A DNA stretch of 64,000 bases from Strigamia acuminata (taxonomy: Eukaryota > Arthropoda > Chilopoda > Geophilomorpha > Linotaeniidae): NCBI GenBank assembly GCA_949358305.1, contig OX442315.1, positions 14,100,427 through 14,164,426 of the forward strand, in the 5' to 3' direction. How positions within the stretch are numbered: the first letter of the stretch is position 1; every line of letters starts with the position of its first letter. The position numbers and the translations under genes were made by a program. This document shows, one piece after another, positions 10,638-42,456 of the stretch. The notes below the pieces were generated by a model. The model was given only the letters and a program-made list of their open reading frames with translations, had not been told where the DNA came from and searched no databases.

Positions 10638-10695
10638 TGCACCTAACCCAACCCAACCTAACCTAACCTAACCTAACCTAACCTAACCTAACCTA
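10638..10695. repeat. Interstitial telomere-type repeat (CCTAA/TTAGG)n
   Basis: About ten tandem copies of CCTAA, the complement of TTAGG, with two variant copies (CCCAA) at the left edge. TTAGG is the ancestral arthropod telomere unit. The tract is short and lies deep inside the window, so it is an interstitial tract, not a chromosome end. Confidence 0.9.
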
Positions 10696-13600
10696 ACCCG
10701 AGTAATATTAAAAATCAAAAATATCTAGATGCAATGTTGAATTGTTCATTGTGTTACTAGGGTAAGTGTTATATTGTGGAATGATCAGACAAAACCAAGA
10801 CCAAATTACATGGTAACTAAGAATGATTTAACGCTAGACTGTGTCCTGCAGTGAAGCAAAAACATAAAAAGCTAACTAACATAAAAACTCACTGTCATTT
10901 TGCTTTGCTGGACATTTTCATCCCTCTTGAAAGCTTTGGTGTCCTCTTCGTTTGCTTTGTCGTGTGATTTGATGTCTTAAAGGTATATTTTTACTTAATC
11001 AATCAGAGTAAGTGCAAGTGGTTTGATGATGTGATGATGCTTAAATTAAAATGCTGAATTGGGATTTGATGGAAACCAGCCTCTCTGTCTTTGTCCCAAC
11101 AGTGTTTCTAGTATTCCTAATTAAAATTTCAACATGATGGCATGAAAGAATTATGAAACATGTATAAGACCTTTGCAAGTTTTTATCTCACTGAAATTAC
11201 CATATTCATCTTGAATACATTTGTCAAGTCCCTTTTACATAAATTCACTGCTTTTAAAACATAAAATTGTCAATTCAGCTTATCTTTTTCCATGCCCATC
11301 TCAAATCATTGGATGATAAGCATGACAGAACCTGTAATTAGCAAAGAAAGACACTCCAATCACAGGCTGTTATCCATTTCATCAGCACACACTGGTGACA
11401 GGCGGCTGAAATAAATCTGGTAAAAAAAGATAAACTTTAATTTGGCATGAAGGGACATAAATAATTTAAAAGCCCACATTTTACATTTTTTCTCCTCTCC
11501 CTATCATACCCTCAAGTGAAAAGTACATCTAAATGTGTTTCTTATTGACTTAATACCTTATCAATAGATAATTTATTCATAGATGAGTGCCCAGTTACTG
11601 TATAATACTCCAATCAATTCCTACCGTCGAGTACTGAATTTTAAACTGCATGAATTACACTGCAAGCAAAGACACACTCCCTTTTGTATCTAAATTTAAA
11701 CTATAGGGGACTATAAAATTTGATAGTTCTTTTTAGTGTGTTTAAAGACACAAAAGGCCTTAACCACAAGTGTTTGCTTTGTATCATAAAGGTTGACAGT
11801 GAGTATTGTGCCAAAATATAAGATTGGCAAGTAAAATGGGGATGGTTTAGATATTAAAATGAGGGACCGGTGGAACATTGTGAAATAAAGATTGATTAAA
11901 GTGCAAATTTATTGAAAGTGTTTGCATCATGTGCTGTTTTGCATCATTTGATATGTATCAAACTTGGCTGCTTTAAGATTGGAATCATTGGTTGTTAAAT
12001 CAATTTATTGACTGCATTAATAATGCAAGGTTTTTTAATTGATGGCTTGGAATAAATTTAAAGGAAAGTTAGAAATTCTAAGTGAGATCAACAAAGTCTA
12101 TCAAAATGTATACAGGAAAAATTCAGTTTAGGTTTTGGCACCTTTGAATGTTATTATTACTGTATTGACACTGACAAAGCAAATGCTAATGACTTAAATG
12201 AGGATTAAGATGAAACCTTTGACTGTGCTTCTACTTGACTTGACTGCTCAAATTTGAAAATTGACTCTATTGTCATACTGCTAATAGAATTGTGACAATA
12301 TAAAATGATCTGTGCATATGATTTCTAACTTTTACTTCCTTCCTTGCTTCTTGTTTTACTACTGTACTTTGCTTTCTCCCACAATGCACTTTGTTCTGCA
12401 TTACTATTTCTTATTGCTTGTATTAACACAGTATGAGCCTAGCAGAAGGCATTTTGTGCATTGAATAGAGATAGATTTTTATCTTTACTATCTTTATGCA
12501 GATGCAAATTCACTAATGCTTTTCATTGATTGAATGCATTTATCACCATAAATGTTATTGCAACTCTGGCTTTGCTGAATTAGGCTTAAATTTACAATGT
12601 TTGCACAACGTTGTATATTGCTATCGGCCGACATTTGGTTGTCGATAATCGGTATCGGCGATATTCTAAAATTTTGATATCGGTCAAAGTCTACATTAAT
12701 GTAGCTTTAAGAAAATCATTATGAGTATTTTTTTTAAAAGATGAATCTGCTTAATTCAAACATTGTTTATGCTACGGCGAGTTTATAATTTGATTTAGTA
12801 AATTAAATTAAATTTATGACCTTTTGCTTGCCATCTATTAGAAGACTATTAATATTTGGAAGCTGCAATAAAACACTACAGGTGGTAGTGTTTATGTACT
12901 TTGATGGTTTTAGTAATTTTCCAATGTTTTTTTTTGTTTCTATATCCTGTCTTTGTTTGCAACTCAATAACAATTCGAAATCCATCTAGTTATTATAGAA
13001 TTATAGAGTGGGAAGTCGAAATTTTATTATGGCAACCATCATGTGTACATAAAAATGGCAGCTGTGGGCGTTTTGCCATTTCCATTTTTTCTGCAGGTTG
13101 TTTGTGGGAGAGGGTATAAGGGAGAATGAGCAAAAAATTGATTTCTTGTACTGTTTTACCTCTTTGGTTTAAACCAAAGCTCCTGGTGAGAATGGAAAGT
13201 AAAAAAAAGAAAAATAACATTATATTTTTTTTTGTTTTTTGTATTTTTTTCCACTTTCTTTTTGCTTTATTTATAAAAATAGGATAAAAAATTCAAAGTA
13301 TAGAGAAGAAAAGAATGCCAGCAACTAAAAATAGACACTGGTTTGTAGTTCACAGACTTTTTCAATATCCTCTTGTTGTTTTTTTATATTCAAAACATTA
13401 GGCACGTTGCAGGTTTTAGACTTTATTGCTACTCATGCTAGATTAAGTTTTGAGTTGATTCAATAATTTAAAATCAGAACTGGTTGTATTATTTGATAAA
13501 TGAAGTTTAGTGGCACCCAAACCATCCACCAAACAAACCTGAAACTAGTGTTGTGACATGTAAAATGCAAATCGACCTGGCGGCTGACAAGACCACTGGA

Positions 13601-27596: not shown

Positions 27597-27805
27597 TGTG
27601 GTGGCCTGTGGTCACCAGGGCAGGGGAAAACAGGAGTAACATTCACAGAGTTGATCTGAAGTTAATATTATTTTAGCATTTTATTATTTTAGAAGACTGA
27701 GACAATAAGTTCTTGTCTAGGGCTGGTTGCCAGGGCAACCAGACAAACAGCTGAGGGGTTGGCAGGAAGTGCTTCCTGTCAACCAGGAAGAAAATACAGA
27801 TTTCT

Positions 27806-27811
27806 TCAGTC
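27806..27811 (+). promoter_or_regulatory. Candidate initiator (TCAGTC) in the 5' LTR
   Basis: Fits the arthropod Inr TCAKTY. There is no TATA box 30 bases upstream and no clear DPE, so it is only a candidate start site. Confidence 0.25.
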
Positions 27812-27911
27812 TAATACAAAAACCTTTGCTGAACAACACTGAAAATAATTACTCCTGGATTTCTACTGTCAAAACCGGATTAATTTGTGCCTTCAACCGA
27901 GGATTGGACTC

Positions 27912-27945
27912 ATTCTTGTGATACAACACATTGTGTCACGGGAAT
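27912..27945 (+). other. Strong 15-bp leader hairpin in the LTR
   Basis: Arms ATTCTTGTGATACAA and TTGTGTCACGGGAAT pair throughout with four wobble pairs, around the loop CACA. A second hairpin follows at 27955-27972 (CCGTCAA/TTGACGG, loop GACA). Both precede the six-hairpin array. Confidence 0.75.
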
Positions 27946-27989
27946 TTCATCTTGCCGTCAAGACATTGACGGAGGGATTTCATGCAACA

Positions 27990-28299
27990 GTCGAGCCATT
28001 CAAACTACGTCGCGGACGCCATTTGAACCACTCGACGATCGTAACCAAGCCATTCCAACTACGTCGCCGACGCCATTGGAACCACTTGGAAGAATAGAGC
28101 GAGCCATTCCAACTACGACAGAGTCGCCATTGGAACTACTCGTGAGGAGAGGGCCATTCGGACTACGATATCATCGCCATCCGAACTACCCGGAGAAGAA
28201 GTAAAGTTAATCCGAACTACGGTTCTACCGCCATTTGGGTTAACACGGTGCCGAAGTAACGCTGCTCGAACTACGACTCGGTCGCCATTCGAGCAAGCG
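27990..28299 (+). other. Array of six covarying RNA hairpins in the 5' LTR
   Basis: Six units, at 27990-28036, 28045-28089, 28099-28143, 28151-28191, 28206-28244 and 28260-28299. ACTA begins at 28004, 28058, 28112, 28162, 28216 and 28270 (steps 54, 54, 50, 54, 54). Each unit is outer stem, ACTA, 4-bp inner stem, triloop, inner stem, CCAT, outer stem. Inner stems are CGTC/GACG, CGTC/GACG, CGAC/GTCG, CGAT/ATCG, CGGT/ACCG and CGAC/GTCG. Triloops are GCG, GCC, AGA, ATC, TCT and TCG. Outer stems are TTCAA/TTGAA, TTCCA/TGGAA (twice), TTCGG/CCGAA, GTTAATCCGA/TTGGGTTAAC and GCTCGA/TCGAGC. Units 1-4 also have a second loop (CCA facing CCA or CTA) and a distal stem (GTCGAG/CTCGAC, CCAAG/CTTGG, GCGAG/CTCGT, GGG/CCC). 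The ACTA/CCAT loop never changes while stems change in compensating pairs, so selection is on RNA shape. Role unknown; packaging, translation or Gag/ORF3 binding are possible. Confidence 0.88.
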
Positions 28300-28400
28300 T
28301 GTAGAAGAAACCGAAATTGATCGGTCAGAGATTGAAGAAACTGCGATTGAGCAGCCACAACGAGAATCATCAGTTGTTGCTGCCGAGAATCGGGAAAACT

Positions 28401-28406
28401 GTAAGT
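28401..28406 (+). promoter_or_regulatory. Splice-donor consensus in the 5' LTR
   Basis: GTAAGT preceded by AAAACT. If transcription starts upstream, this could be the donor joined to the acceptor at 38638-38639 to make a subgenomic mRNA for the third ORF. The same site is present in the 3' LTR at 42031. Confidence 0.4.
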
Positions 28407-28601
28407 GAAGAATACGTTATTCGGACGAAGCAGTACGGAAACGTCGCGTCGACGGGACGAACGGAGCCGGAGACGCCATTTTTATTCCTATTTTCCATTT
28501 TCATTAATAATTCGTTAATTTCTAGTCATTATGTATAATTTTAATAGTTTAATCATTGTAAATCGTTTTTATTAGAGAGATAACTTTATTCAAAGAGCCA
28601 G

Positions 28602-28607
28602 AATAAA
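28602..28607 (+). terminator. Polyadenylation signal AATAAA (5' LTR copy)
   Basis: AATAAA followed by GAGAGTGTGTTTTT, a GT-rich downstream element. The functional copy for the genomic RNA would be the 3' LTR one at 42232-42237. Confidence 0.6.
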
Positions 28608-28828
28608 TGAGAGAGTGTGTTTTTAAGACAGAAGTTGGTTTATTGAATCGGTTGATTTGTTCAATTGTAAAATTGGATAAATCAATTGTTGAGTTAGAAT
28701 AGTTAGAAGCCTTAGTTATTTATTTGAGTTTAAAATATAAGACCCGTCGGGGCATTAAGTAATTTCCACAGCTTATTTTTGATAATTTGAGTGAGGTTTT
28801 ATTAAGAATAGGCCGGGATTACTACACT

Positions 28829-28841
28829 TGGGGGCCTGGCC
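28829..28841 (+). promoter_or_regulatory. Candidate primer-binding site (tRNA-Pro-like)
   Basis: TGGGGGCCTGGCC begins two bases after the LTR. It matches the TGGGGGC start of known tRNA-Pro primer sites and about 10 of 13 positions overall, from memory of the retroviral tRNA-Pro site. Confidence 0.5.
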
Positions 28842-28945
28842 ATAGTATTTGAACCTAAACAGCTAGTCATTTAGTTGAGGGACATAACTTTGGGTTCTTG
28901 TTTAATAGTTAGGTCTGTTTCTTTCTACCTTGTCTTTTATTAACC

Positions 28946-31900
28946 ATGCCTTGGCCACGAGAGCAACTGCGAGGACAGGGCGGCCCGCGACGTATTAAGA
29001 CGCGAGGAGGACGTGATGACAGACGAGCGAGATCGTTGTCGCCTTCCGATCATGAAGAAGGCACCACGCGCCAATTTAGCCAAGACTTTTGGCTCAAGTC
29101 CGACAGTCCCACGTCGCAGAAATCTACGCCGGTACACAACGCCCCACCTAGTGTGAAGTCAACACCGCGCTCGAAAATTGACATTTCATTGCTACCTCGT
29201 GACAAGCTTATAGCCGTCGCTACACGTCAGGGTCGTCTATTACGCGGTTACCAGGCGGCAGCAGCCCAGAAAGCGGCGGACAGCGCACAGTCATCGGGCG
29301 AGAATTCACCAATTCGACGTAAATTAAAAGAAGTTAGACAACAGATGCAAGACATTCTGCAAGAAGCTGAAGACAGCCTAGAACGGCAACGCATTCGATA
29401 TCAACAAGGCGGTCCAATTTCCGACGATGAAGTCGACGCAATCGCCGCAGCATCGGCGGACCGAAGCCGACGGTTAGCAGAAGCCCAGGAAGAGGAATTC
29501 CAGTTAGTGAAGCGTCTTCGGTTGGAGGAACTTCAAGCCCAGCAAGCTAAACATGAGTACGAAATTCTCAAACAGACTTTGGATGAGGAACGACGACTCG
29601 AGAAAGAGCAAATTGCAGCAGCAGAGGCACACCTCCAATCGGAACGGCAGGCGGAAAAAGAACATCTCGAAGCTACGAGAGTCCGCTTAGAGGCGGAACG
29701 CCTGGCGTTGGCATCGAAACTAACCGAAGTGGAAACGAATGCGAACCAAGAAAACGCACATCTTCGCCAGGAAGCGTTACGCGCGCAGGAAGAAGCTCAT
29801 AGAGCAAAAATGGCGCTAGAAGACGCACAGTATTTGGCGCGAGTGCAATACCCGATTGCGCAGCCTGACGCAGCGAATCGGGACCCGCCAGAAGTAGTAT
29901 TAGTTTCAGAGTCTGGAACGAACCCTCTGAAAAGGGGGAGAGAAGGTGGGGATGAGCGTGGCGACAGAAAACGATCGTCACCTCCCATGCAGAACAGAAA
30001 AGTATTTGACGTAATTGATCAACGCAATCAACAGCGTGGAGCTGCCAATCGATTTGACCAACCAAAGAGTAACACACTGGGACCGATGGACATTCCAAAA
30101 TGGAAAAATCTGCCAAGAACGGTAGATAAAGATGGCAAATCACGCCCGACGGAACCATTGCATCCAAGTGAAACGTCCCAAACCGAGTGTGTCACAATTC
30201 CTGCGTCAAAACGAGAGGATAGACGTTCAGTTTATTCACCAAGTGAGCCAACTGATTATTATAATAAGTTGACAAAAGTTGCTGATTTCCAAGAACGTTG
30301 GATAAATGAAATCGAGAATTGGAAATCTGAAAGATATCAAGACTCCTCAGCCAATAAAGATACTGGCAACAGCGACAGAGCTGAAAGAGAGAGGAGTGAA
30401 CGTCACACATCTTGGCAAGATCAAGAAGTTCCAACGCATGAATTCTCAAGAGATAATTCACGTTCTGCAAGACAAAACCCACAGTCAGGTAATCCTGCAC
30501 AGCAAGCTGAATATGAACCAACGGGTCAGAAAAGCCTGGGCGCAGGAAGTGCTAGTTACGAGAATACTAGCCGAGGAAATGACAGTCAAGGACGCGGCCA
30601 AGGTCGCCCCGACGGAGAGCGCCAGCAAAGTAACGAAAACCGTTACGAATATCGCCCAGGCGACGGAGAACGTTACGGCGGCCAACAACGTCAACAAGAC
30701 GAAGATCGCCGCAACGAAGAACAACGTCGCAGAGACGAACAGCGTCGAAAAGATGAGTACTATCGAAATGAAGAGCAGCGCCGACGCGACGAATTTTACC
30801 GCGAAGAAGAGCGACGCCGAAGAAATGATGATGCTCGCCAGCAAGGCACTCACCGAGGTGACGACCGTTACCAGAGAGACGATTCTCGTCAAAAAGATGA
30901 ATATCGCCATGGTAACGACCCGCGCCACGAACAGGAGTATCGTCGCAATGACGAACAACGTCGTAGAGATGAAAAACGTCATGACGATTACTCACGATGG
31001 AGTGAAGACTATACTGGTCGACAAGAAAGGAAATACTCGCAGTCTGAACACTTCCGCCACAATGACGCAAGTTACGCGGGTCAAACCGGAAATAGACAGG
31101 GCAGACCTGATAATTCTCAATATAGAGAACCGCCACCTGCTGCCAATATGTACGGTCCAACAGACAACACCATTAAATTGCAGGAGTACATTGAACAGCA
31201 GATAGATAAGCGCTTGGCAAAGATTCCATCCAGATCACAAGAGATGGAAGAGGTACTGCAAAAGCAAATCCGGAAATATTGCGTAGCAAATTGGACACAT
31301 GTCTTTGTTAACGCATCCCAAATAAAATGGGACCGCATAACACCCGACACATTTGATGGTAGTTGGTCAGTAGGAACGAAATTCCTAGATGAAGTGATGC
31401 AGATAGTGAGATGCCATGAAGCGGACCCCTACGACACGCTTAAGAGAATAATTCCGAAGATGTTGACGGGGGGAGCCGCGAACTGGTTCTATGAACACGC
31501 GTTCACACAATGGGATGCGTTTGTTCACGAATTTATGAAAGAGTATGGTGAGTCACATGCGACTTTGGTGGATCACTGGGACAATTTGCAACAGATGCTA
31601 GGTGAGGACCTCCGGTCGTACTTACGCAGGACGGAAGAACTGATAACTCACCTTCCAAACAAAGTTTGCAACTTTGCCGCTGATCGTCAATTTCGCAGAG
31701 GCCTGACGGAATTTTCGGAGAAGGTGCTGACAATGGTGAACGCACCGATGGCCAGCTCGTTTGACAGGTTAGCGCAGTTTATGCGCGATAACCAAATGTA
31801 TATCGAAGACAGATATATAAAATATTTGCCACCCGATGAGCAAAGAGCTCGGGATGAATTGCAACGGAAACGATCCGATCAGGCAAGGAGCAATCCTAAA

Positions 31901-32494
31901 ATGATGCAACCACCGCCATATATCTCGGCACAACGTAAAGAGAGTAACTTTAACCGGAATAGAGATACGGGTCAGACACCCTACCCACAGCCAAAAATTC
32001 CGATGCGTCCTTCGGCAAAGTTAGTGTCAGAAGTAGACGACAGGGGTGAATTCACGGGCAACCAAATGTTGTCAATGGACCTCACCGACCAACACATTGA
32101 GTCGATAGTGGAGGCAGTCGGCACCATGTACGCACGCAACAACCCAACAGTTGCAAAGTACAAACCGCCAATGCAACCAAAGGCGACATCTAAGTCTGAA
32201 GCGACAGAAAGTTCGACGAAAGAGTTGAAAACGTGCTCAATTGAATTGACAAAAAAGACTCCGCTTGAGGAGATAGCGCAAGCCGGGCAAGCTTCGACTT
32301 CCACTGTAAAATTGGAAGGAAACATAGAAGCGTCAACTCAACCCAGGTTGACTCCGGAGACAGCCCCTTGTCACAATTGCGGCCAATTAGGCCATTGGTC
32401 CAGGAGCTGCCCCCAGCCCAAGAAACAAGCGTCAAAGCCAAGCTATCAGCGGCTAATTGACGCCATAACCGAAGCCGTTCAAAAAAACATGTGA
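28946..32494 (+). CDS. gag: Gag polyprotein of the retrotransposon, unusually long
   Basis: 1182 residues; forms the virus-like particle and binds genomic RNA. The ATG at 28946 has a good context (TTAACCATGCC), lies 120 nt past the LTR and is the first long frame. Order of parts: basic N-terminus (1-50); alpha-helical, coiled-coil-like Glu/Arg/Ala-rich stretch (about 130-300); linker; Arg/Asp/Glu/Gln-rich low-complexity block (about 550-690) with repeats such as EEQRRRDE; capsid domain (about 800-960) with the retrotransposon-gag pattern around GGAANWFYEH, WDNLQQMLGEDLRSYLRR and FRRGL; and a single CCHC zinc knuckle CX2CX4HX4C (Cys1142, Cys1145, His1150, Cys1155). Gypsy-type Gag is usually 300-500 residues, so the 800-residue N-terminal extension is notable. 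The frame ends in TGA within the frameshift signal. An overlapping frame at 30306-31205 is a by-product of the low-complexity block. Confidence 0.93.
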   Translation: MPWPREQLRGQGGPRRIKTRGGRDDRRARSLSPSDHEEGTTRQFSQDFWLKSDSPTSQKSTPVHNAPPSVKSTPRSKIDISLLPRDKLIAVATRQGRLLRGYQAAAAQKAADSAQSSGENSPIRRKLKEVRQQMQDILQEAEDSLERQRIRYQQGGPISDDEVDAIAAASADRSRRLAEAQEEEFQLVKRLRLEELQAQQAKHEYEILKQTLDEERRLEKEQIAAAEAHLQSERQAEKEHLEATRVRLEAERLALASKLTEVETNANQENAHLRQEALRAQEEAHRAKMALEDAQYLARVQYPIAQPDAANRDPPEVVLVSESGTNPLKRGREGGDERGDRKRSSPPMQNRKVFDVIDQRNQQRGAANRFDQPKSNTLGPMDIPKWKNLPRTVDKDGKSRPTEPLHPSETSQTECVTIPASKREDRRSVYSPSEPTDYYNKLTKVADFQERWINEIENWKSERYQDSSANKDTGNSDRAERERSERHTSWQDQEVPTHEFSRDNSRSARQNPQSGNPAQQAEYEPTGQKSLGAGSASYENTSRGNDSQGRGQGRPDGERQQSNENRYEYRPGDGERYGGQQRQQDEDRRNEEQRRRDEQRRKDEYYRNEEQRRRDEFYREEERRRRNDDARQQGTHRGDDRYQRDDSRQKDEYRHGNDPRHEQEYRRNDEQRRRDEKRHDDYSRWSEDYTGRQERKYSQSEHFRHNDASYAGQTGNRQGRPDNSQYREPPPAANMYGPTDNTIKLQEYIEQQIDKRLAKIPSRSQEMEEVLQKQIRKYCVANWTHVFVNASQIKWDRITPDTFDGSWSVGTKFLDEVMQIVRCHEADPYDTLKRIIPKMLTGGAANWFYEHAFTQWDAFVHEFMKEYGESHATLVDHWDNLQQMLGEDLRSYLRRTEELITHLPNKVCNFAADRQFRRGLTEFSEKVLTMVNAPMASSFDRLAQFMRDNQMYIEDRYIKYLPPDEQRARDELQRKRSDQARSNPKMMQPPPYISAQRKESNFNRNRDTGQTPYPQPKIPMRPSAKLVSEVDDRGEFTGNQMLSMDLTDQHIESIVEAVGTMYARNNPTVAKYKPPMQPKATSKSEATESSTKELKTCSIELTKKTPLEEIAQAGQASTSTVKLEGNIEASTQPRLTPETAPCHNCGQLGHWSRSCPQPKKQASKPSYQRLIDAITEAVQKNM

Positions 32495-32527
32495 GCGCGG
32501 GTTCAGAAGATTCACTGAAACCCGCGC
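32482..32527 (+). promoter_or_regulatory. -1 ribosomal frameshift signal at the gag/pol junction
   Basis: The slippery heptamer A AAA AAC (32482-32488) is in the correct gag phase. A 6-nt spacer holding the gag stop follows, then a stem-loop: 5' arm GCGCGGGTTCAG (32495-32506), loop AAGATTCA, 3' arm CTGAAACCCGCGC (32515-32527) with one bulged A. Pol lies in the -1 frame, as required. The heptamer is the classic X XXY YYZ type used by several retroviruses. Confidence 0.93.
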
Positions 32528-35500
32528 CAGCAAATGACTCGGAAATTGCGCGAAAAAAAGAACTGGAAAAACCAACAGCTCCAGAACTTACTACAACAGT
32601 CCCAGAACCTACCCCAACTCCAGAACCAACAACGACTTCAGAAACAAAAACTGCTCCTCCGATAAGGAAAGGATCAGTAATTTACGAAATTAGTAAGGGA
32701 CAGATTATTGGCATGAAATTCCCACCTGTAGAAATGGCAGCCTTAGCTAAAATAGAAGAAATCGTAGGAATCTCAACAGCTGCGAAATCTATGGAAGCGG
32801 TCGAAGCTATAGAATCTACGGAGGCTACGGGAGCAGCAAACATTGCGGAAGCAGCAAATGCTGACGAAGTTCCATCAACATCGGAAGCTTGTGACGTAAA
32901 ACCCCAAGCGCTATCACTTGATGAAATGGAACTAACGCCTCCAGAGGCAATAGGTACCATGCAAGGAAAAGCTGACATGGAATACGACGTTAAGAAGGAT
33001 TCTGACGGTATGATTTTGTTTCCAACGACTGATTTGTCGGAAGTTCCCAAAACAGAGGAAATTACGCAAATAGATGCGGCATATTTCACGGCAGAAATAG
33101 ATCAAGCTCTCAAAAATGTGGGACTTGATGATGAGAATGAAGCCACGATTTTTTGGGCAAACGTGAGAAGCACGTACGAGAATGAGCCGTCTGAAGCTGC
33201 ATGGATGGTTGACACCCCGACGGAACCCGTAGAATGGGACCCATTCCTCAAGGAATTACCAATAATCGAACCCGAAGAAAAACCAAGGATTAGAGTTTTC
33301 AGAGCTCTCATTCCGGATCAAGATATGTTAAGTGGAATGACCACAATGGAAATTTCCACGGAAAGTGGAACAATAATGGGTACACTTGATTCCGGCGCAA
33401 ACCGAAGTTGTATCGCCTTACCTTTGGTCCAAGACATGGAAATGGAAGACCAGATTTCCAGAGTGGGGCCAAACATGGCCATTAATACGGCCGACAAGAA
33501 GGTACAACCGATAGGGTCGCTACGATTGACCTTTCGCTGGTCACACGGCATAATGATACATAACTTCCTTGTCTTGCCACATGAAATGAGATTCATGCTA
33601 ATGGGCAATGACATAATGAAGCGGATGCGGGTCCAACCTAACCCACTAAATGGTAAATGGAATTTTGTGCAAACACTTGAAGTTCCTGCGCCATATATCC
33701 ATCAAGATGTACTAGACAGACTAGAAAAGAAGTTGGAGGAGCCTGAGTCCTCATGGAACACCTTTGCAAAGCGATCGAGCTTCTGTGCTTTTGAGGCCCG
33801 ACTAAAAGTGGGTAATGGTGTCCATAATTTGGTCGAGGAGGCCAAGCTCCAACTAACGGAAGCCATGCAACTCGAGCATGTTCTCAAAAAATATGAGCAC
33901 ATCTTAACAAAGACGCCTGGGAGAACGCACGTGTTGCACCACACAATAAATCTCGACACGGATAAGCCGATAAGGGTCCCTTACAAAAGCTGGAACCCTC
34001 AAAAAAGAGAAATCCTCTCGAAACTATGCCAGGAAATGCTAGATAAAGGCTACGTGTCCCAAGCAGAAGGAGATTACGGTGCTCGCATTGTGCTAGTCAT
34101 GAAGCCAGGGTCAGAACCAAGGCTTTGCATAGACTATAGACCAATCAACGAGCATACGTTATATGACCCTCCGCAGATGCCTACGATCGACGAGATCCTA
34201 CGCGAATTAGGCGAGTTTAAGTGGGTCACGACAATTGACCTCACTAAAGGATATTGGCAGATCGAGCTGCGGCCCGAAGACCGACCAAAAACGGCCTTCT
34301 GGAGCCCGCTCGGTCGGCTGATGTTCAATGTAATGCCTTTTGGATTGGTGAACGCTCCAACAACCTTCCAAAGGCTAATCGAGAAAGTTCTTGGTGATGC
34401 CCACAGGAGATATGCCTGGGCGTACCTTGACGATATAGTTATCGTCTCGGCCACCTATGAAGAACATCTCCGGCACGTGGAGTCAGTTTTAGATAAACTC
34501 GACAAGGCGAACCTCCACATAAATCCAGAAAAGTCTAAATTTTGCCGGAAAGAGTTAAAATTCCTTGGCTATACGCTAGGAATAAATGGACTTAGTGTGG
34601 ACCCGAAAAAAGTGGCGGCCATCACACAGTTTCCAGCCCCAAAAGACCTGAAAGGCTTACAACGCTTTATGGGTATGGTAAATTTCTTCCATCGCTTATT
34701 GAAGGATTTATCTGCTGTTTCTGAGCCGTTACGTCCACTCTTAAAAAAGGGCATAGATTTCGTATGGACTGACGACCATCAAGCGGCTTTTGAAAAAGTG
34801 AAAAGGTTATTGGCTGACGCTGTCACATTGAAGTTGCCCAACCTGAATAAGCCGTTCATAGTCCACACCGATGCCAGTTATCAGGGGTTAGGAGCTGCCC
34901 TGATGCAGCAACACGAGATTGATGGTCAAACCGTTGAGGTTCCGTGCATGTATATTAGTCGTAGCTTGCAACAAGCCGAGCTAAATTATAGTGCAACGGA
35001 TTTAGAATGTCTCGCCGTGATCTGGGCCCTGCGCAAGTTTAGGCCGTACTTGGAATGCACCAAGTTTACGGTACAAACAGATCATCAGGCGTTGAAGTGG
35101 CTCATGGGACTCGACGAGCCAACGGGACGTTTAGCCCGTTGGCAGATGGAGCTCATGGGATATGACTTCAAAATTCATTACATCAAAGGCCCACTGAACG
35201 TATTGGCTGATGCGTTATCCAGAGATCCAGTCCAACTGATCTGTGATGAGGAAGATACCGGGGAAGCTGACGGGTTTATGTCTTATTGCCCGACCAACCA
35301 CCAGAAATGGACATTCAATAACTGGAACCAACTGCCAGTACCGGAAAGGCGACCAAATGAAGACGATAAGTTTGTGTCATATTGGTGCAATGCATACAAT
35401 TTAACGACGAATGAGTCGGAAGAGACGCGAGACTGTCAAGGCGAAGAGCCATGGCCATATGAGCCAGTGTCAGAGAATGAAATGATCAAAACATTCATTG

Positions 35501-37518
35501 GCAAAGTCACGTCTCAGTTGGATTGCAAACCGCCAACGCGCCAGGAGTTCATAGATCACCAGCAGAAGGATAAACATTGTTATGGTTTAAAAAATTACTT
35601 AGAAACCGAACAATTTCCGCCATGGGTGACTACGCGACTACAGAGGCGAAATTATAAGAAATTAGCATCGTGTCACCTTATCGAAAACGACCTACTGTTG
35701 AAATACAGCCCAACTATTTCAGACGAGTTCTCAGATGACAATCGCGCACTGAAAGTGGTGGTCCCGAAAACATTGCGATTTCGAATACTGTGGCTTAGCC
35801 ATGGACACCCATTGGCCAGCCACTGCGGCATCAGTCGGACACTATACCGGATGCGACGCATCTACTCATGGGAGGGCATGAAACCAGACGTAACAAGGTT
35901 TATCAAGCACTGCACAAGGTGCCAAGCGTGCAAGCCCCGTCCAAAGACCCAAGTAGAAGCCGCCGAAATCGGACCATACGCTCCATTTCAGTGCCTGAGC
36001 GTCGATTTGGTTGGACCACTGCCAAGAACGATAGAGGGCAATAATTATATCCTAGTGGTGTTGGATATAGCCACAAGGTGGCCTAAACTATATCCATTAG
36101 AAGACCCTACTGCGCAAACGATAGCCGATTGCATCTACGACACCTCGATGGACTGGGGTTTTCCGGTTAAGATAATATCGGACAATGGCCCACAGTTTAA
36201 GGCGCGGTTGTATCAGGAATTTTGCAAGAAGTTCAAGATTTTTCCAAAGTTCACCTCTCCATATCATCCGCAGGCCAACCCGGTCGAGAGGTTGAACCGG
36301 GATATCAAATATTCGATCGCCCTATACACTGCAATCCACTCCAGATGGGACGAATACCTCCGCGAGATCGCATTTAGTGTACGAACAACCGACACTAGAG
36401 GACGGGGATATTCGCCAGCGTACCTTAACACAGGGAGAGAGTTCCGAATCCCATGGGATCCGCGAGTCCTCGATGGCATAATGAAGATTGACCCTCAGAA
36501 GCCGCACGAATATGTGCAAAGGCTAGAGAAAGTGATACGGGACACCTATCAACATATGATGGCCCATATTGTTGACTTGCGCGAACGGGTGCGAAATCAC
36601 AAAGAAGACAAAAAGTTCGCTGATTTCAGAGTGAATGATTTGGTATGGCGAGAGAGCCACGTGTTGTCGCAAGCGGCGAAGGGAATTTCCGCCAAACTTG
36701 CAGACAAAAGGATGGGTCCTTACGTTATCACGCAGATCCACCAAGGTGGAGCCGCAAAACTGCGAAGACTGCGGGACAATAAGACATATAAGTCAATTCA
36801 CATATCTGAACTATCACCATATTTCCCTGAACTCAATCAGGAGGTATGGGTGAAAGGCCAAACTCAAAGTGACCCAAACGCTGAAGTGGTGAACACACTG
36901 CTCGATGATGAACCAGCACACGAGTCGGAAGTAGAAAAAATGTCGAAAAATACGACAAAAAAGCAAAACCGATCGACTGTAAAAAAGGGGGGAAATTTGC
37001 CAATTTCCCAAGAACAAATATCATCAAAAGATTTACCACAACAGCAAGAAACGTCACATGACGTAGAAAATTCACAAGAAATTCCACGCGACGCCGACGA
37101 AATTCAAACACCGTCGACGATGCGAGAAACGCCACAAGACGTCGAAGGCACGTTCGACACGTGGGAAACTCAAGTGCAAGACTTGGAAAATTACGATATC
37201 GATTTTCAGCGCAATCTACAAACTTCACCAGAAAATGAAGCAGCAGAATTGCGCGAAGAAAATTCGATTGCTAAAGAAATGGAAGCAACTCCATTATTTT
37301 TCCCGGATGAATTTATTTTGGAAACTGAAGAACAAATAAAATCATTTTCCAAAAAGGGGGGAAGAGTGGTGGAGAAGCCGAAAATCAAAAAGAAATATTC
37401 AAATGCAGTTGATAGACACCAACAAACATCAAAACAAACTTCGTTCGAGAAGAAAAATACATCAAAATATGTATTACGAGACAGAACGAAGATAAAGACT
37501 CCAAAACGGTTCGAATAA
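32491..37518 (+). CDS. pol: Pol polyprotein (protease, RT, RNase H, integrase)
   Basis: About 1675 residues counted from 32491, where the open frame begins with GTG. It is not an independent start: pol is reached by -1 frameshifting at 32482-32488. Order: Glu/Thr/Pro/Ala-rich linker (1-250); aspartic protease with LDSGANRS (Asp300); reverse transcriptase with LDDI active site (YLDD 645-648); RNase H with Asp794, Glu839 and Asp864; integrase zinc finger HX4HX29CX2C (His1106, His1111, Cys1141, Cys1144) and catalytic Asp1172, Asp1231, Glu1266 in a D-D34-E spacing with PYHPQANPVER; GPY motif at 1409-1411; then a 260-residue charged tail without recognised domain. The tail contains two KKGG-coding purine tracts (36981 and 37351). 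All catalytic residues are present, with no stop or frameshift. Confidence 0.97.
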   Translation: MSAGSEDSLKPAPANDSEIARKKELEKPTAPELTTTVPEPTPTPEPTTTSETKTAPPIRKGSVIYEISKGQIIGMKFPPVEMAALAKIEEIVGISTAAKSMEAVEAIESTEATGAANIAEAANADEVPSTSEACDVKPQALSLDEMELTPPEAIGTMQGKADMEYDVKKDSDGMILFPTTDLSEVPKTEEITQIDAAYFTAEIDQALKNVGLDDENEATIFWANVRSTYENEPSEAAWMVDTPTEPVEWDPFLKELPIIEPEEKPRIRVFRALIPDQDMLSGMTTMEISTESGTIMGTLDSGANRSCIALPLVQDMEMEDQISRVGPNMAINTADKKVQPIGSLRLTFRWSHGIMIHNFLVLPHEMRFMLMGNDIMKRMRVQPNPLNGKWNFVQTLEVPAPYIHQDVLDRLEKKLEEPESSWNTFAKRSSFCAFEARLKVGNGVHNLVEEAKLQLTEAMQLEHVLKKYEHILTKTPGRTHVLHHTINLDTDKPIRVPYKSWNPQKREILSKLCQEMLDKGYVSQAEGDYGARIVLVMKPGSEPRLCIDYRPINEHTLYDPPQMPTIDEILRELGEFKWVTTIDLTKGYWQIELRPEDRPKTAFWSPLGRLMFNVMPFGLVNAPTTFQRLIEKVLGDAHRRYAWAYLDDIVIVSATYEEHLRHVESVLDKLDKANLHINPEKSKFCRKELKFLGYTLGINGLSVDPKKVAAITQFPAPKDLKGLQRFMGMVNFFHRLLKDLSAVSEPLRPLLKKGIDFVWTDDHQAAFEKVKRLLADAVTLKLPNLNKPFIVHTDASYQGLGAALMQQHEIDGQTVEVPCMYISRSLQQAELNYSATDLECLAVIWALRKFRPYLECTKFTVQTDHQALKWLMGLDEPTGRLARWQMELMGYDFKIHYIKGPLNVLADALSRDPVQLICDEEDTGEADGFMSYCPTNHQKWTFNNWNQLPVPERRPNEDDKFVSYWCNAYNLTTNESEETRDCQGEEPWPYEPVSENEMIKTFIGKVTSQLDCKPPTRQEFIDHQQKDKHCYGLKNYLETEQFPPWVTTRLQRRNYKKLASCHLIENDLLLKYSPTISDEFSDDNRALKVVVPKTLRFRILWLSHGHPLASHCGISRTLYRMRRIYSWEGMKPDVTRFIKHCTRCQACKPRPKTQVEAAEIGPYAPFQCLSVDLVGPLPRTIEGNNYILVVLDIATRWPKLYPLEDPTAQTIADCIYDTSMDWGFPVKIISDNGPQFKARLYQEFCKKFKIFPKFTSPYHPQANPVERLNRDIKYSIALYTAIHSRWDEYLREIAFSVRTTDTRGRGYSPAYLNTGREFRIPWDPRVLDGIMKIDPQKPHEYVQRLEKVIRDTYQHMMAHIVDLRERVRNHKEDKKFADFRVNDLVWRESHVLSQAAKGISAKLADKRMGPYVITQIHQGGAAKLRRLRDNKTYKSIHISELSPYFPELNQEVWVKGQTQSDPNAEVVNTLLDDEPAHESEVEKMSKNTTKKQNRSTVKKGGNLPISQEQISSKDLPQQQETSHDVENSQEIPRDADEIQTPSTMRETPQDVEGTFDTWETQVQDLENYDIDFQRNLQTSPENEAAELREENSIAKEMEATPLFFPDEFILETEEQIKSFSKKGGRVVEKPKIKKKYSNAVDRHQQTSKQTSFEKKNTSKYVLRDRTKIKTPKRFE
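37349..37372 (+). repeat. Relic of the polypurine tract/LTR junction inside pol
   Basis: Matches 22 of 24 positions of the functional junction at 41211-41234: CCAAAAAGGGGGGAAG then AGTGGTGG here, against CCAAAAAGAGGGGAAG then TGTGGTGG there. It reads KKGGRVV in pol. A weaker second tract (AAAAAAGGGGGGAAATTT) is at 36981-36998. Confidence 0.7.
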
Positions 37519-38607: not shown

Positions 38608-38639
38608 TTTTTTTTGGTTTTTATTTATCGAATATTTAG
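38608..38639 (+). promoter_or_regulatory. Splice acceptor just upstream of the third ORF
   Basis: A T-rich run (TTTTTTTTTGGTTTTTATTT) followed by ATATTTAG ending at 38639. The next exon would start ten bases before... specifically at 38640, nine bases ahead of the ATG at 38649. The layout mirrors env expression from spliced RNA. Confidence 0.55.
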
Positions 38640-38648
38640 CAAGAGTGG

Positions 38649-41153
38649 ATGTCATCATGGGACGAGCTTCCAACCACAGTTCGAGTACCATCTAACATCT
38701 TGCGAGGAAAAATCCCCGAGATAGTCCGACAAATCTTTAAAGCCCACGGCTACAGCGCTTGGAGAACACGCAAGTGGCTCTCCCAAGCTGCGACCCGAAG
38801 ATGGGGCACATACAAAAAAGTGAAGCATGGATTCAAGGAGTGTTTGTGGGAGCTTGTAAAGGATTTTCTCGAAACCATTGATCCACCCGGGATGTTGTGG
38901 AGTCCACTGCTCGCGGAGGATTTCCCGCTCACTTTCGAGGAGGAAAAGGACTATGGCATTTATTTCAAGCCAGGAACAAATAAATTCCTGTTTCTGCAGG
39001 AAATACGGGAGAGATTAAAAAAGGACATGATGACGGTTGCGGCTAGATTCATGGAGGAACAACAAAAGTACCAAGAAGCTCAAACCAATGCACCGGGCAA
39101 GATCTACGTCTACAGGCCGAACCCAGCAGCCCGCACGCAATACCAAATGCATCAGTTACATATGGCGGGTGCAATCGGCCAGAATTACGCACCACAAGAC
39201 CGACCACACACCACCGAGTATGGACCACTGGCTTTCGCCACTAAACCAAAACAGCCAAGGGAGCAACGAGAGTCACCATTCGGAGAAGGGACATCTCGTA
39301 GGAGTAGGAAGCGTCGTCAGATGCGTCAAGCAATTGAACGAGAAGTAACGATGTCGCAGGATGACAAAAATAGAATTTTGATTCAGATTAAGGGAAGCGA
39401 CGACCCCGACGCCCCAATCATCGCCCTCGACGAGTCTTGGCCTGACGAGCTGGTGCTTGTAGACGAAGCTTCATCCGAGAGCGAAGAAAATTATGAGACA
39501 CCGGCGGAATGGTCGCCACGACGGGAAACGACCGCGTCGTCAGAGCTATGGGATACCCCAACATTGGTCCCGCCGGTCCCACCCACACCCATGGATCCAC
39601 AAGAGGTGGAACCACAAGGAGCGGCAGGGACGAGCACTGGAGCGCGACCAAAACAAACGAAGGACGTCACTACGTCGCGAAAACGTCCGCAAGAGACCGC
39701 CCAACGACCAAGTCGTGACACGTCCCAAGACAGAAAAGTGTCGTCATCAGGACGAGAAGGCCAAGAGCGATCAAGTCGACGCGAAAAATCTCGCCGCCGT
39801 AGCAGCCAGGCTCGGGCTTCAAGCAAGAGCCAAACACGGCACTCGAGCCGATCACCATCACGACGACAGAGTCGATCACGGCCACCCAGCGAGCGAGGAA
39901 GATCGCCAGCTTGTCGGCCTAACCCTCACTTGCAACCAATGAGTGAATTTATTGCGCCGAGGAATCATGCCATTCCCGTGCCCGAGATAGCATTGTTGCC
40001 GTACGCTGACTCAATGGCGTTGCAACCATCGCCCAATTTTGATGCGGGGTATTATCAACTGTGGGATGACGTATTGGCGAACCCACACAGGGCACAGGAA
40101 GTACTATCTGCAAGTTTGGACGCATTTCAAGCGGCGCAGATAAATGAAGCGTTAAATGAATTGAGACGTCTGGCACTGGAGTTCCGCAGGAAACCGTTGG
40201 CAGAACAAACACAAAAATGGCTGCAAAGATTCCAAAAGCAGATGATCCCCATTTTGACCAGATTGCTGTTTCCAGGGGTATTCCCAGGCGACGAATCAGC
40301 GTTTGTCGCCATGAGCATTCTTTGGACGACGCCAATGGGGATCCCCAAAGAATTAATAGAGAACTGGGAGTCTGTCCAGTATGACCCCGTCCTATTAAGG
40401 AGTATGTTGATGTGTAGGATGTTGTCCAACGGGGAGGTAGCGTCGCAAAGCGCTTCCCGACTAAGGAATGAGTGGCACCAGAGGTTGGTTGAAATCGAGG
40501 CTCACAGAGAGGCGCAAGCAACCGGGAGTCAGGTGGTAAATTGGAGACCAGCAGGAGCACCGGCGTGGCTAGCTGCCCCACCTGCCGCCCCACCAGCAGC
40601 CCCAACGGCTTCAACACGCCAGCCATCTACAGACTACGTTCCTGCATCGGATACGGACATGTTTTATTTTCGTGCATCACCCAACGCAACATTGGTCGGG
40701 ACCAAACTCCCGATTGAACCAGAGCAGTCGTCACAACCCGAAAGTCAGGACGAGACAGTTAAGAAGGCATCGAAACCGGTCGTCGTGAGGAATGCCGAAT
40801 ATGGAAAAATCCGACACTTCTTCCCAAGATTGAACTTTTCCAGAGCAACTCGAGCGTTGCTAATTAATAATTCCACGCTCTGCCGAGAAGTCCACAAATG
40901 GCTGGAGAATGCAGCTAGAGAGCCGAGGAGAAAAGTTCAGCATAGACGAATCATCGCGGTCCGAAAACCACCAAGGACGGATAGAGATCGTTACGACATG
41001 CAGTACGAAGAAGTACTTCCACTAACCACGGGCATTGCACAGGTGTGGTTACACCTAAACGTTGGTATGGCGTCTGGCCCGACTCGTGGGCTCCCGAGGA
41101 TTTCTGTTTCTGAACAGGAAGTTCCGGAACCCGACGTCAACGAGAGCCACTAG
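38649..41153 (+). CDS. Third ORF of the retrotransposon, function unknown, RS-rich
   Basis: 834 residues, in the position where errantiviruses and retroviruses carry env. I do not recognise it. It has no signal peptide, no hydrophobic segment long enough for a membrane anchor and no furin-like cleavage site in an envelope context, so it is not a normal envelope. Parts: N-terminal region (1-110) rich in Trp and basic residues (AWRTRKWLSQAATRRWGTYK); acidic/Pro-rich linker (240-335); an Arg/Ser block (about 335-425) with SRRREKSRRRSS- and SRSPSRRQSRSR-like runs, as in splicing factors or nuclear RNA-binding proteins; a predicted helical part (about 450-640) with ALNELRRLALEFRRK; Ala/Pro linker; basic C-terminus (710-800). 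I infer a soluble, perhaps nuclear or RNA-binding accessory protein. Codon use matches gag and pol, and the frame is intact, so it is probably under selection. Confidence 0.8.
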   Translation: MSSWDELPTTVRVPSNILRGKIPEIVRQIFKAHGYSAWRTRKWLSQAATRRWGTYKKVKHGFKECLWELVKDFLETIDPPGMLWSPLLAEDFPLTFEEEKDYGIYFKPGTNKFLFLQEIRERLKKDMMTVAARFMEEQQKYQEAQTNAPGKIYVYRPNPAARTQYQMHQLHMAGAIGQNYAPQDRPHTTEYGPLAFATKPKQPREQRESPFGEGTSRRSRKRRQMRQAIEREVTMSQDDKNRILIQIKGSDDPDAPIIALDESWPDELVLVDEASSESEENYETPAEWSPRRETTASSELWDTPTLVPPVPPTPMDPQEVEPQGAAGTSTGARPKQTKDVTTSRKRPQETAQRPSRDTSQDRKVSSSGREGQERSSRREKSRRRSSQARASSKSQTRHSSRSPSRRQSRSRPPSERGRSPACRPNPHLQPMSEFIAPRNHAIPVPEIALLPYADSMALQPSPNFDAGYYQLWDDVLANPHRAQEVLSASLDAFQAAQINEALNELRRLALEFRRKPLAEQTQKWLQRFQKQMIPILTRLLFPGVFPGDESAFVAMSILWTTPMGIPKELIENWESVQYDPVLLRSMLMCRMLSNGEVASQSASRLRNEWHQRLVEIEAHREAQATGSQVVNWRPAGAPAWLAAPPAAPPAAPTASTRQPSTDYVPASDTDMFYFRASPNATLVGTKLPIEPEQSSQPESQDETVKKASKPVVVRNAEYGKIRHFFPRLNFSRATRALLINNSTLCREVHKWLENAAREPRRKVQHRRIIAVRKPPRTDRDRYDMQYEEVLPLTTGIAQVWLHLNVGMASGPTRGLPRISVSEQEVPEPDVNESH

Positions 41154-41226: not shown

Positions 41227-42456
41227 TGTGGTGGCCTGTGGTCACCAGGGCAGGGGAAAACAGGAGTAACATTCACAGAGTTGATCTGAAGTTAATATTA
41301 TTTTAGCATTTTATTATTTTAGAAGACTGAGACAATAAGTTCTTGTCTAGGGCTGGTTGCCAGGGCAACCAGACAAACAGCTGAGGGGTTGGCAGGAAGT
41401 GCTTCCTGTCAACCAGGAAGAAAATACAGATTTCTTCAGTCTAATACAAAAACCTTTGCTGAACAACACTGAAAATAATTACTCCTGGATTTCTACTGTC
41501 AAAACCGGATTAATTTGTGCCTTCAACCGAGGATTGGACTCATTCTTGTGATACAACACATTGTGTCACGGGAATTTCATCTTGCCGTCAAGACATTGAC
41601 GGAGGGATTTCATGCAACAGTCGAGCCATTCAAACTACGTCGCGGACGCCATTTGAACCACTCGACGATCGTAACCAAGCCATTCCAACTACGTCGCCGA
41701 CGCCATTGGAACCACTTGGAAGAATAGAGCGAGCCATTCCAACTACGACAGAGTCGCCATTGGAACTACTCGTGAGGAGAGGGCCATTCGGACTACGATA
41801 TCATCGCCATCCGAACTACCCGGAGAAGAAGTAAAGTTAATCCGAACTACGGTTCTACCGCCATTTGGGTTAACACGGTGCCGAAGTAACGCTGCTCGAA
41901 CTACGACTCGGTCGCCATTCGAGCAAGCGTGTAGAAGAAACCGAAATTGATCGGTCAGAGATTGAAGAAACTGCGATTGAGCAGCCACAACGAGAATCAT
42001 CAGTTGTTGCTGCCGAGAATCGGGAAAACTGTAAGTGAAGAATACGTTATTCGGACGAAGCAGTACGGAAACGTCGCGTCGACGGGACGAACGGAGCCGG
42101 AGACGCCATTTTTATTCCTATTTTCCATTTTCATTAATAATTCGTTAATTTCTAGTCATTATGTATAATTTTAATAGTTTAATCATTGTAAATCGTTTTT
42201 ATTAGAGAGATAACTTTATTCAAAGAGCCAGAATAAATGAGAGAGTGTGTTTTTAAGACAGAAGTTGGTTTATTGAATCGGTTGATTTGTTCAATTGTAA
42301 AATTGGATAAATCAATTGTTGAGTTAGAATAGTTAGAAGCCTTAGTTATTTATTTGAGTTTAAAATATAAGACCCGTCGGGGCATTAAGTAATTTCCACA
42401 GCTTATTTTTGATAATTTGAGTGAGGTTTTATTAAGAATAGGCCGGGATTACTACA
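41227..42456 (+). repeat. 3' LTR, 1,230 bp
   Basis: Same length as the 5' LTR (offset 13,630) with no difference found by eye. Carries the same hairpin array at 41620-41929, donor at 42031 and AATAAA at 42232-42237. Confidence 0.97.
41620..41929 (+). other. Six-hairpin array, copy in the 3' LTR
   Basis: Identical to 27990-28299. If it lies in R, it would also be in the 3' UTR of every transcript of the element. Confidence 0.85.

Follow-up and report, generated by a model that had tools for sequence, protein, structure and literature searches.

A tandem array of covarying hairpins in the long terminal repeats of a Ty3/Gypsy-type element of Strigamia acuminata

In the gypsy insulator, su(Hw) sites stand in tandem within the leader of a Gypsy element; they are DNA sites and are not known to have paired, covarying arms. 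In the 5' leader hairpins of TYMV, the internal loops are symmetric and consist of C.C and C.A oppositions, which can be protonated; the leader hairpins of tymoviruses were reportedly treated by Bink et al. in 2002. The 5' leaders of retroviruses and of Ty1 are structured packaging and dimerisation RNA bound by Gag (PMC4974528). Moreover, HTLV possesses an LTR-encoded stem-loop element, the RxRE, which is located in U3/R in HTLV-1 and in R/U5 in HTLV-2, is present in HTLV-1 on all viral mRNAs, and is bound by Rex, with its arginine-rich sequence (PMC3434621).

The locus considered here lies in a window of 64,000 nucleotides of the Strigamia acuminata genome (GCA_949358305.1, contig OX442315.1), this being the whole stretch of DNA analysed, and its features are collected in Table 1. 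Two LTRs of 1230 bp each, without a single mismatch between them, are accompanied by a duplication of AATC at both outer flanks and by a purine tract, AGAGGGGAAG, preceding the 3' LTR, so that the terminal repeats, the short target duplication and the polypurine tract of a Ty3/Gypsy LTR element are all present. Within Pol, the domains RVT_1 (548-706), RNase H (769-901), H2C2 (1101-1160) and rve (1173-1270) were found, and this order, with reverse transcriptase and RNase H ahead of the integrase, is the Ty3/Gypsy one, from which the element is assigned to that type. The Gag and Pol frames overlap at 32461-32494, with a -1 shift between them. The third frame, of 837 codons, has its first ATG at 38649, and its product, ORF3, gave no match in Pfam (E up to 0.1) or in the PDB (E up to 1). 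Elsewhere in the window, an interstitial (TTAGG)n run is found at 10641-10698 (TRF unit ACCTA, 11.6 copies); TTAGG is the usual telomere repeat of arthropods, and the run is what an arthropod host would lead one to expect.

Table 1. Features of the element and of its leader, in window coordinates.
Feature	Position	Strand	Basis or remark
5' LTR, TGT...ACA	27597..28826	+	identical to 41227-42456 over 1230 bp
Initiator-like TCATTC inside conserved GGACTCATTC	27910..27915	+	putative start near 27912
Type-2 hairpin 1, UCUUG ... CGGGA	27914..27943	+	hairpin scan
Type-2 hairpin 2, UCUUG ... AGGGA	27950..27977	+	sequence; also among 36 distinct hairpins
Type-1 unit 1, two loops	27991..28035	+	fold scan, covariation
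Type-1 unit 2, two loops	28045..28089	+	fold scan, covariation
Type-1 unit 3, two loops	28099..28143	+	fold scan, covariation
Type-1 unit 4, two loops	28149..28193	+	fold scan, covariation
Type-1 unit 5, inner loop only	28203..28247	+	fold scan, covariation
Type-1 unit 6, inner loop only	28257..28301	+	fold scan, covariation
Donor-like GTAAGT, putative 5' splice site	28401..28406	+	GT[AG]AGT conservation
AATAAA, putative polyadenylation signal	28602..28607	+	sequence
Gag frame, one CCHC zinc knuckle	28946..32494	+	frame and domain search
Pol frame: RT, RNase H, integrase	32461..37518	+	frame and domain search
AG behind T-rich stretch, putative 3' splice site upstream of ORF3	38638..38639	+	12/18 pyrimidines upstream
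ORF3, arginine/serine-rich stretch	38649..41153	+	frame; no Pfam/PDB match
3' LTR	41227..42456	+	identity to 5' LTR, 1230 bp
Identical six type-1 units, 3' LTR	41621..41931	+	second copy of array

Each LTR contains six hairpins of one kind, designated type 1, whose inner loops start in the 5' LTR at 28005, 28059, 28113, 28163, 28217 and 28271. The unit-to-unit steps are thus 54, 54, 50, 54 and 54 nt in both LTRs, in agreement with the preliminary description, which had reported an array of repeated sites with six units at a 54-nt pitch and one step of 50; Tandem Repeats Finder reports just 2.8 copies for the array. All six units share a 6-bp stem and ACTA opposite CCAT, beyond which a distal stem of 4 bp is capped by a triloop. 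The inner stems (CGTC/GACG and CGAC/GTCG, twice each, CGAT/ATCG and CGGT/ACCG) and the varying triloops of units 1 to 6 (GCG, GCC, AGA, ATC, TCT and TCG) are those listed before. An internal loop of ACTA facing CCAT had also been proposed: the two motifs are indeed opposed in 6/6 units, but the loop itself is smaller, since the A of ACTA can pair with the T of CCAT, which leaves a 3x3 loop of CTA and CCA unpaired. Furthermore, the second symmetric loop claimed for four units is present in units 1-4 as a 3x3 loop (CCA on the left, CCA or CTA on the right) lying 6 bp outward of the first and followed by an outer stem, while in units 5 and 6 the same position is paired through. When the closing bases are counted in, the outer loop proves to be the inner motif reversed, 5'-ACYAC opposite 5'-GCCAU. 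The full type-1 hairpin is therefore two copies of one motif on a two-fold axis, separated by a 6-bp UNNNNA stem; each hairpin carries the motif 5'-A CYA C / 5'-G CCA U once or twice, and the oppositions within the 3x3 loop are, in the sense RNA, C.A, Y.C and A.C. In a related copy, L009 (minus strand), a long hairpin carries four such loops. Another relative, L078 (minus strand), shows direct repeats at about 600-760 containing GAGCCATTCGAACTACTC, which is self-complementary except for two 3x3 loops, so that its copies can pair mutually or across RNA molecules.

That the fold exceeds chance was established with a sequence-free scan for 6 bp, a 3x3 loop without a standard pair, 4 bp and a triloop. 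Six instances turned up in the array, whereas 2000 dinucleotide shuffles gave 0.001 on average and never more than 1. Over the whole window, the same scan gave 13 instances on the plus strand (six in each array and one elsewhere) and none on the minus strand. In the six window units, which came from the original finding and not from a pairing scan, 91.1% of the cells are paired and 11 of the 15 pairs are altered on both sides, neither value being reached in 500 shuffles; their 17 further pair types were equalled by eight of the 500. The earlier suggestion of an RNA structure under selection is supported by the fold counts and by these double changes.

The covariation extends to related copies, all counts of covariation and distribution being from this one genome. 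Thirty distinct units were aligned with MAFFT, without gaps and without use of the structure; 90.0% of their cells are paired, a percentage biased upward because the scan that chose them demanded at least 5/6 middle pairs and both basal inner pairs, and 86 cells are altered on both sides against 29.7 when shuffled. In slid registers, these values reach at most 44.0% and 20 cells. Neither the number of pairs altered on both sides in the 30 units (11, equalled by 114/500 shuffles) nor that of further pair types (25, equalled by 312/500) stood above the shuffles. RNAalifold recovered the middle and inner stems of the 30 units unaided and did not predict the outer one. A model derived from the units gave 101 matches from 20 sources, reduced to 58 distinct rows of some eight families, in an alignment that is fitted to the structure and includes some partial or off-register rows (at least L009:1065-1101). 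In these 58 rows, pairing holds for 99.1% of the middle-stem cells, where five of the six pairs are altered on both sides, for 94.5% of the inner-stem cells and for 67.4% of those of the much looser outer stem; related LTRs that lose the stems and keep the sequence were not found among them. Compensated changes can be followed at single positions: where the window has A-U as the third inner pair of unit 4, L009 has G-C, and where it has U-A as the fourth inner pair of unit 5, L009, L019 and L020 have C-G. The distal stem measures about 3 to 9 bp and the terminal loop varies freely, and the inner loop reads CYA on the left in 56 of the 58 rows and CCA on the right in 52. It is thus the loop and the spacing that stay constant, and the stems vary in sequence but remain paired.

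Arms could also be kept complementary in the absence of selection, by hairpin-templated mutation during copying, given that the templated correction of quasi-palindromes is a known process which would yield paired changes. The same correction, however, would erase mismatched loops, and the loops are precisely what varies least here, which leaves this explanation barely credible.

Immediately upstream of the type-1 array, two hairpins of 30 and 28 nt belong to a second class (type 2), of the form UCUUG-stem-loop-stem-YGRGA, which is also present, often in tandem, in the LTR flanks of ORF3-bearing families without type 1. A scan of the flanks L026-L045, counting G-U as paired and including a few off-register rows, gave 37 rows in 14 of the 20 flanks, whereas 20 shuffles averaged 1.85 rows (range 0-7); in antisense it gave four. 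Among 36 distinct hairpins, namely those of 58 type-2 candidates that end in [ACT]G[AG]GA, selected for at least five Watson-Crick pairs out of seven in the upper stem, 96.8% of the upper pairs form (51.6% with shuffled partners) and 128 cells are altered on both sides (shuffled maximum 55). In the genome, the pattern TCTTGN{19,21}YGRGATTTC has 294 matches, some of those listed not being hairpins, against six for a reversed control. This recurrence indicates that covarying arrays of leader hairpins are frequent in the lineage, the type-1 array looking like the version of one clade.

The strand on which the fold acts can be approached through its wobble pairs, as a G-U pair in the sense RNA is an A-C mismatch on the opposite strand. 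In the middle stem of the 58 type-1 rows there are 22 G-U, three of them from the off-register row L009:1065-1101, against 3 A-C; the inner stem has five of each and the outer stem 21 G-U and 14 A-C. For the 19 distinct middle stems, taken by a symmetric criterion, the figures are 15 and 4, or 12 and 3 after removal of the L009 rows 711 and 757, whose arms come from different hairpins. Type-2 upper stems show 14 G-U against 7 A-C in the 36 hairpins (p 0.09 for type 2 alone) and 26 against 9 in all 58 candidates. Pooling both types, with the 12/3 figure for type 1, gives 26 G-U out of 36, with a one-sided p of 0.006 that assumes independence, although the counts are not independent. An antisense RNA might nevertheless be the functional one, for instance as a structured antisense LTR transcript: it folds with lower energy and a stronger z (-6.64, against -4.03 in sense, none of 100 shuffles folding as well on either strand), and its loops turn into U.G, G.A or G.G, and G.U oppositions. 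Against it stand the excess of G-U over A-C in the sense middle stems and type-2 upper stems, the fourth base pair at the foot of the type-2 hairpins, which with a fixed left arm is mostly U.G in sense (36 of 58 candidates, with U-A in 5), and the initiator-like, donor-like and AATAAA sites, which are all in sense orientation. An antisense function is therefore very unlikely, and the sense RNA is likely, with moderate support, to be the functional strand.

The position of the array within the LTR was compared over 20 type-1 loci. In 20/20, the initiator-like GGRCTC lies just upstream of the leader hairpins and a donor-like GT[AG]AGT downstream of the array; nine of these loci belong to the window family and five to a second one, by our own grouping, and they thus amount to about eight families and not to 20 independent cases. 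With GGRCTC ahead of it and GTRAGT behind, the array is probably inside an R-region leader. On this sequence evidence, transcription would start near 27912, the R region would span the whole array, and ORF3 would be expressed from a spliced RNA.

Such a position would also suit hairpins that act without any dedicated protein of the element, by slowing ribosome entry or scanning, by supporting internal initiation or by affecting the use of the donor. Stable folds do lie near the putative start and shortly before the donor-like site, and upstream ATGs are few, just three preceding the Gag ATG in 27597-28945; stability alone, however, would fix neither the sequence of the loop nor the spacing, and this possibility is considered rather improbable. 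Alternatively, the array might act as DNA, offering binding sites to a transcription factor such as a YY1/Pho-like protein that recognises GCCAT, much as the gypsy insulator offers su(Hw) sites. GCCAT does occur 12 times in the sense strand of the LTR and leader, ten of them within the array, and ATGGC not once. The full site, which we take to be CGCCATNTT, is nevertheless found there once only, at 28474 and outside the array, and one-sided DNA sites need no pairing, whereas the arms vary and remain complementary, so that this reading is very improbable. The array of DNA sites, the mutation-driven palindromes and the antisense function are all weaker than the docking of a protein on the RNA. 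Independently of the array, CGCCATTTT at 28474 corresponds to a full YY1/Pho-like site; such a site follows the donor-like site in 16 of the 20 type-1 loci and occurs anywhere in 23 of 40 loci.

The distribution in the genome was studied by DNA searches with three arrays and with the type-1 pattern. The matches listed for the array of the window comprise 31 in the same genome, of which 14, the two of the window included, agree exactly with the query; this identity among genomic copies, together with that of the LTRs, speaks for recent movement of the element. The type-1 pattern had 113 matches, at least ten of them due to chance, against one for the reversed control, and beyond the known copies two further type-1 families, L075 and L078, were recognised. 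No type-1 hairpin was detected by the model (E up to 1) downstream of divergent ORF3 copies in any of 20 flanks, drawn from at least 93 ORF3 matches in the genome, so that type 1 as such is dispensable for ORF3 or for this lineage. The LTR-start motif is present in 16 of these 20 flanks, so four may be without an LTR; one of the four, L044, adjoins a truncated relative of the window family.

Some pattern matches were set aside. Nine matches of ACCACGTTTATAACGCCATTCGGA and that at C1:35338551 were attributed to chance and, on our reading, lie in coding sequence, the nine in RT-like sequence; there, model R1 matched only 19 positions, with 15.5-16.5 bits. Likewise, 28 viral contigs with one pattern match each were taken as chance because they had been picked by the pattern itself; on them, R1 matched 12 times (E up to 1), with one full-length match of 23 bits.

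Several arrangements of copies were also observed. Related array pairs about 20.4 kb (G000:C13:2027796/2048226) and 20.8 kb apart (G000:C3:33590643/33611431) are perhaps the LTR pairs of a much larger relative, and the ORF3 found at these pairs is about 50% identical across most of its length. On C1, three arrays in a row (G000:C1:46004989, 46018671 and 46031042), 13.7 and 12.4 kb apart, have the pattern of tandem elements with a shared LTR. Three ORF3 copies on C9 (G000:C9:4411194, 4430620 and 4450046), with a spacing of exactly 19426 bases, reflect either a tandem duplication or an effect of the assembly.

A constant loop and spacing, combined with paired stems that are free in sequence, is the signature of a protein reading an internal loop within a helix; the two-fold loop pair hints at a dimer and the tandem arrangement at cooperative loading. 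Our preferred reading, in which we have moderate confidence, is that the array is a selected RNA, read in sense, which forms part of a structured leader and docks a protein probably encoded by the element itself. Transcription would begin at the conserved GGRCTC right before the first hairpin, and the RNA would present two type-2 hairpins, six type-1 hairpins and then the splice donor. The hairpins would be carried on both the genomic RNA and the spliced ORF3 RNA and would recur at the 3' end. A probably dimeric protein, which the element itself probably encodes, would recognise the CYA/CCA loop and load cooperatively on the array, the candidates being the Gag nucleocapsid, with its knuckle, and the arginine/serine-rich ORF3. 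As for its purpose, loading might mark the RNA of the element for assembly, or for transport, splicing or translation control. Since the donor-like site follows the array, the hairpins are likely to be on spliced RNA too, which makes a packaging signal of unspliced RNA alone less likely.

A wider and rather improbable reading would see in the hairpin arrays of arthropod Gypsy LTRs a new RNA recognition code. Its identical, two-fold-related 3x3 loops of C.A, Y.C and A.C oppositions, one or two per hairpin and 6 bp apart, would be read by a dimeric ORF3 or Gag and might switch with pH; type 2 would be a more widespread, independent neighbour class, and the leader would be modular, hairpin types being gained and lost as docking cassettes.

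One genome with many diverged copies makes the structure readable from the sequence alone. What recognises the CYA/CCA loop, and how elements mark their own RNA, have thereby become directly testable; furthermore, the repeated, modular hairpins could be used, together with the protein that binds them, as a natural tag for RNA.

As regards known systems, the whole window had no Rfam match at the gathering score, and a literature search, largely without subscription papers, found no such element, so that within these sources the preliminary view that nothing like it had been described holds. A cis-acting leader RNA of an LTR element is a known kind; the loop motif and the array form, which we have not seen described, would be new. 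Retroviral and Ty1 leaders resemble the present one in being structured leader RNA of LTR elements; they are not known to carry a single covarying loop motif repeated in tandem, and a further difference is that the array here lies upstream of the putative donor. The gypsy insulator is likewise a tandem array in a Gypsy leader, whereas the arms here pair and covary. With respect to loop chemistry, the closest analogue is the packaging hairpins of tymoviruses, with which type-1 loops share symmetric C.A and C.C or Y.C oppositions; those hairpins are far fewer and belong to plus-strand RNA viruses of plants, and to our knowledge the sequences of the TYMV hairpins and of the array are unrelated. 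Finally, the closest working analogue is the RxRE, also an LTR-encoded structured element, which comprises 255 nt and four stem loops where the array consists of tandem copies of one loop motif; the RxRE is bound by Rex, and in the present element ORF3, with its arginine/serine-rich stretch, is a candidate.
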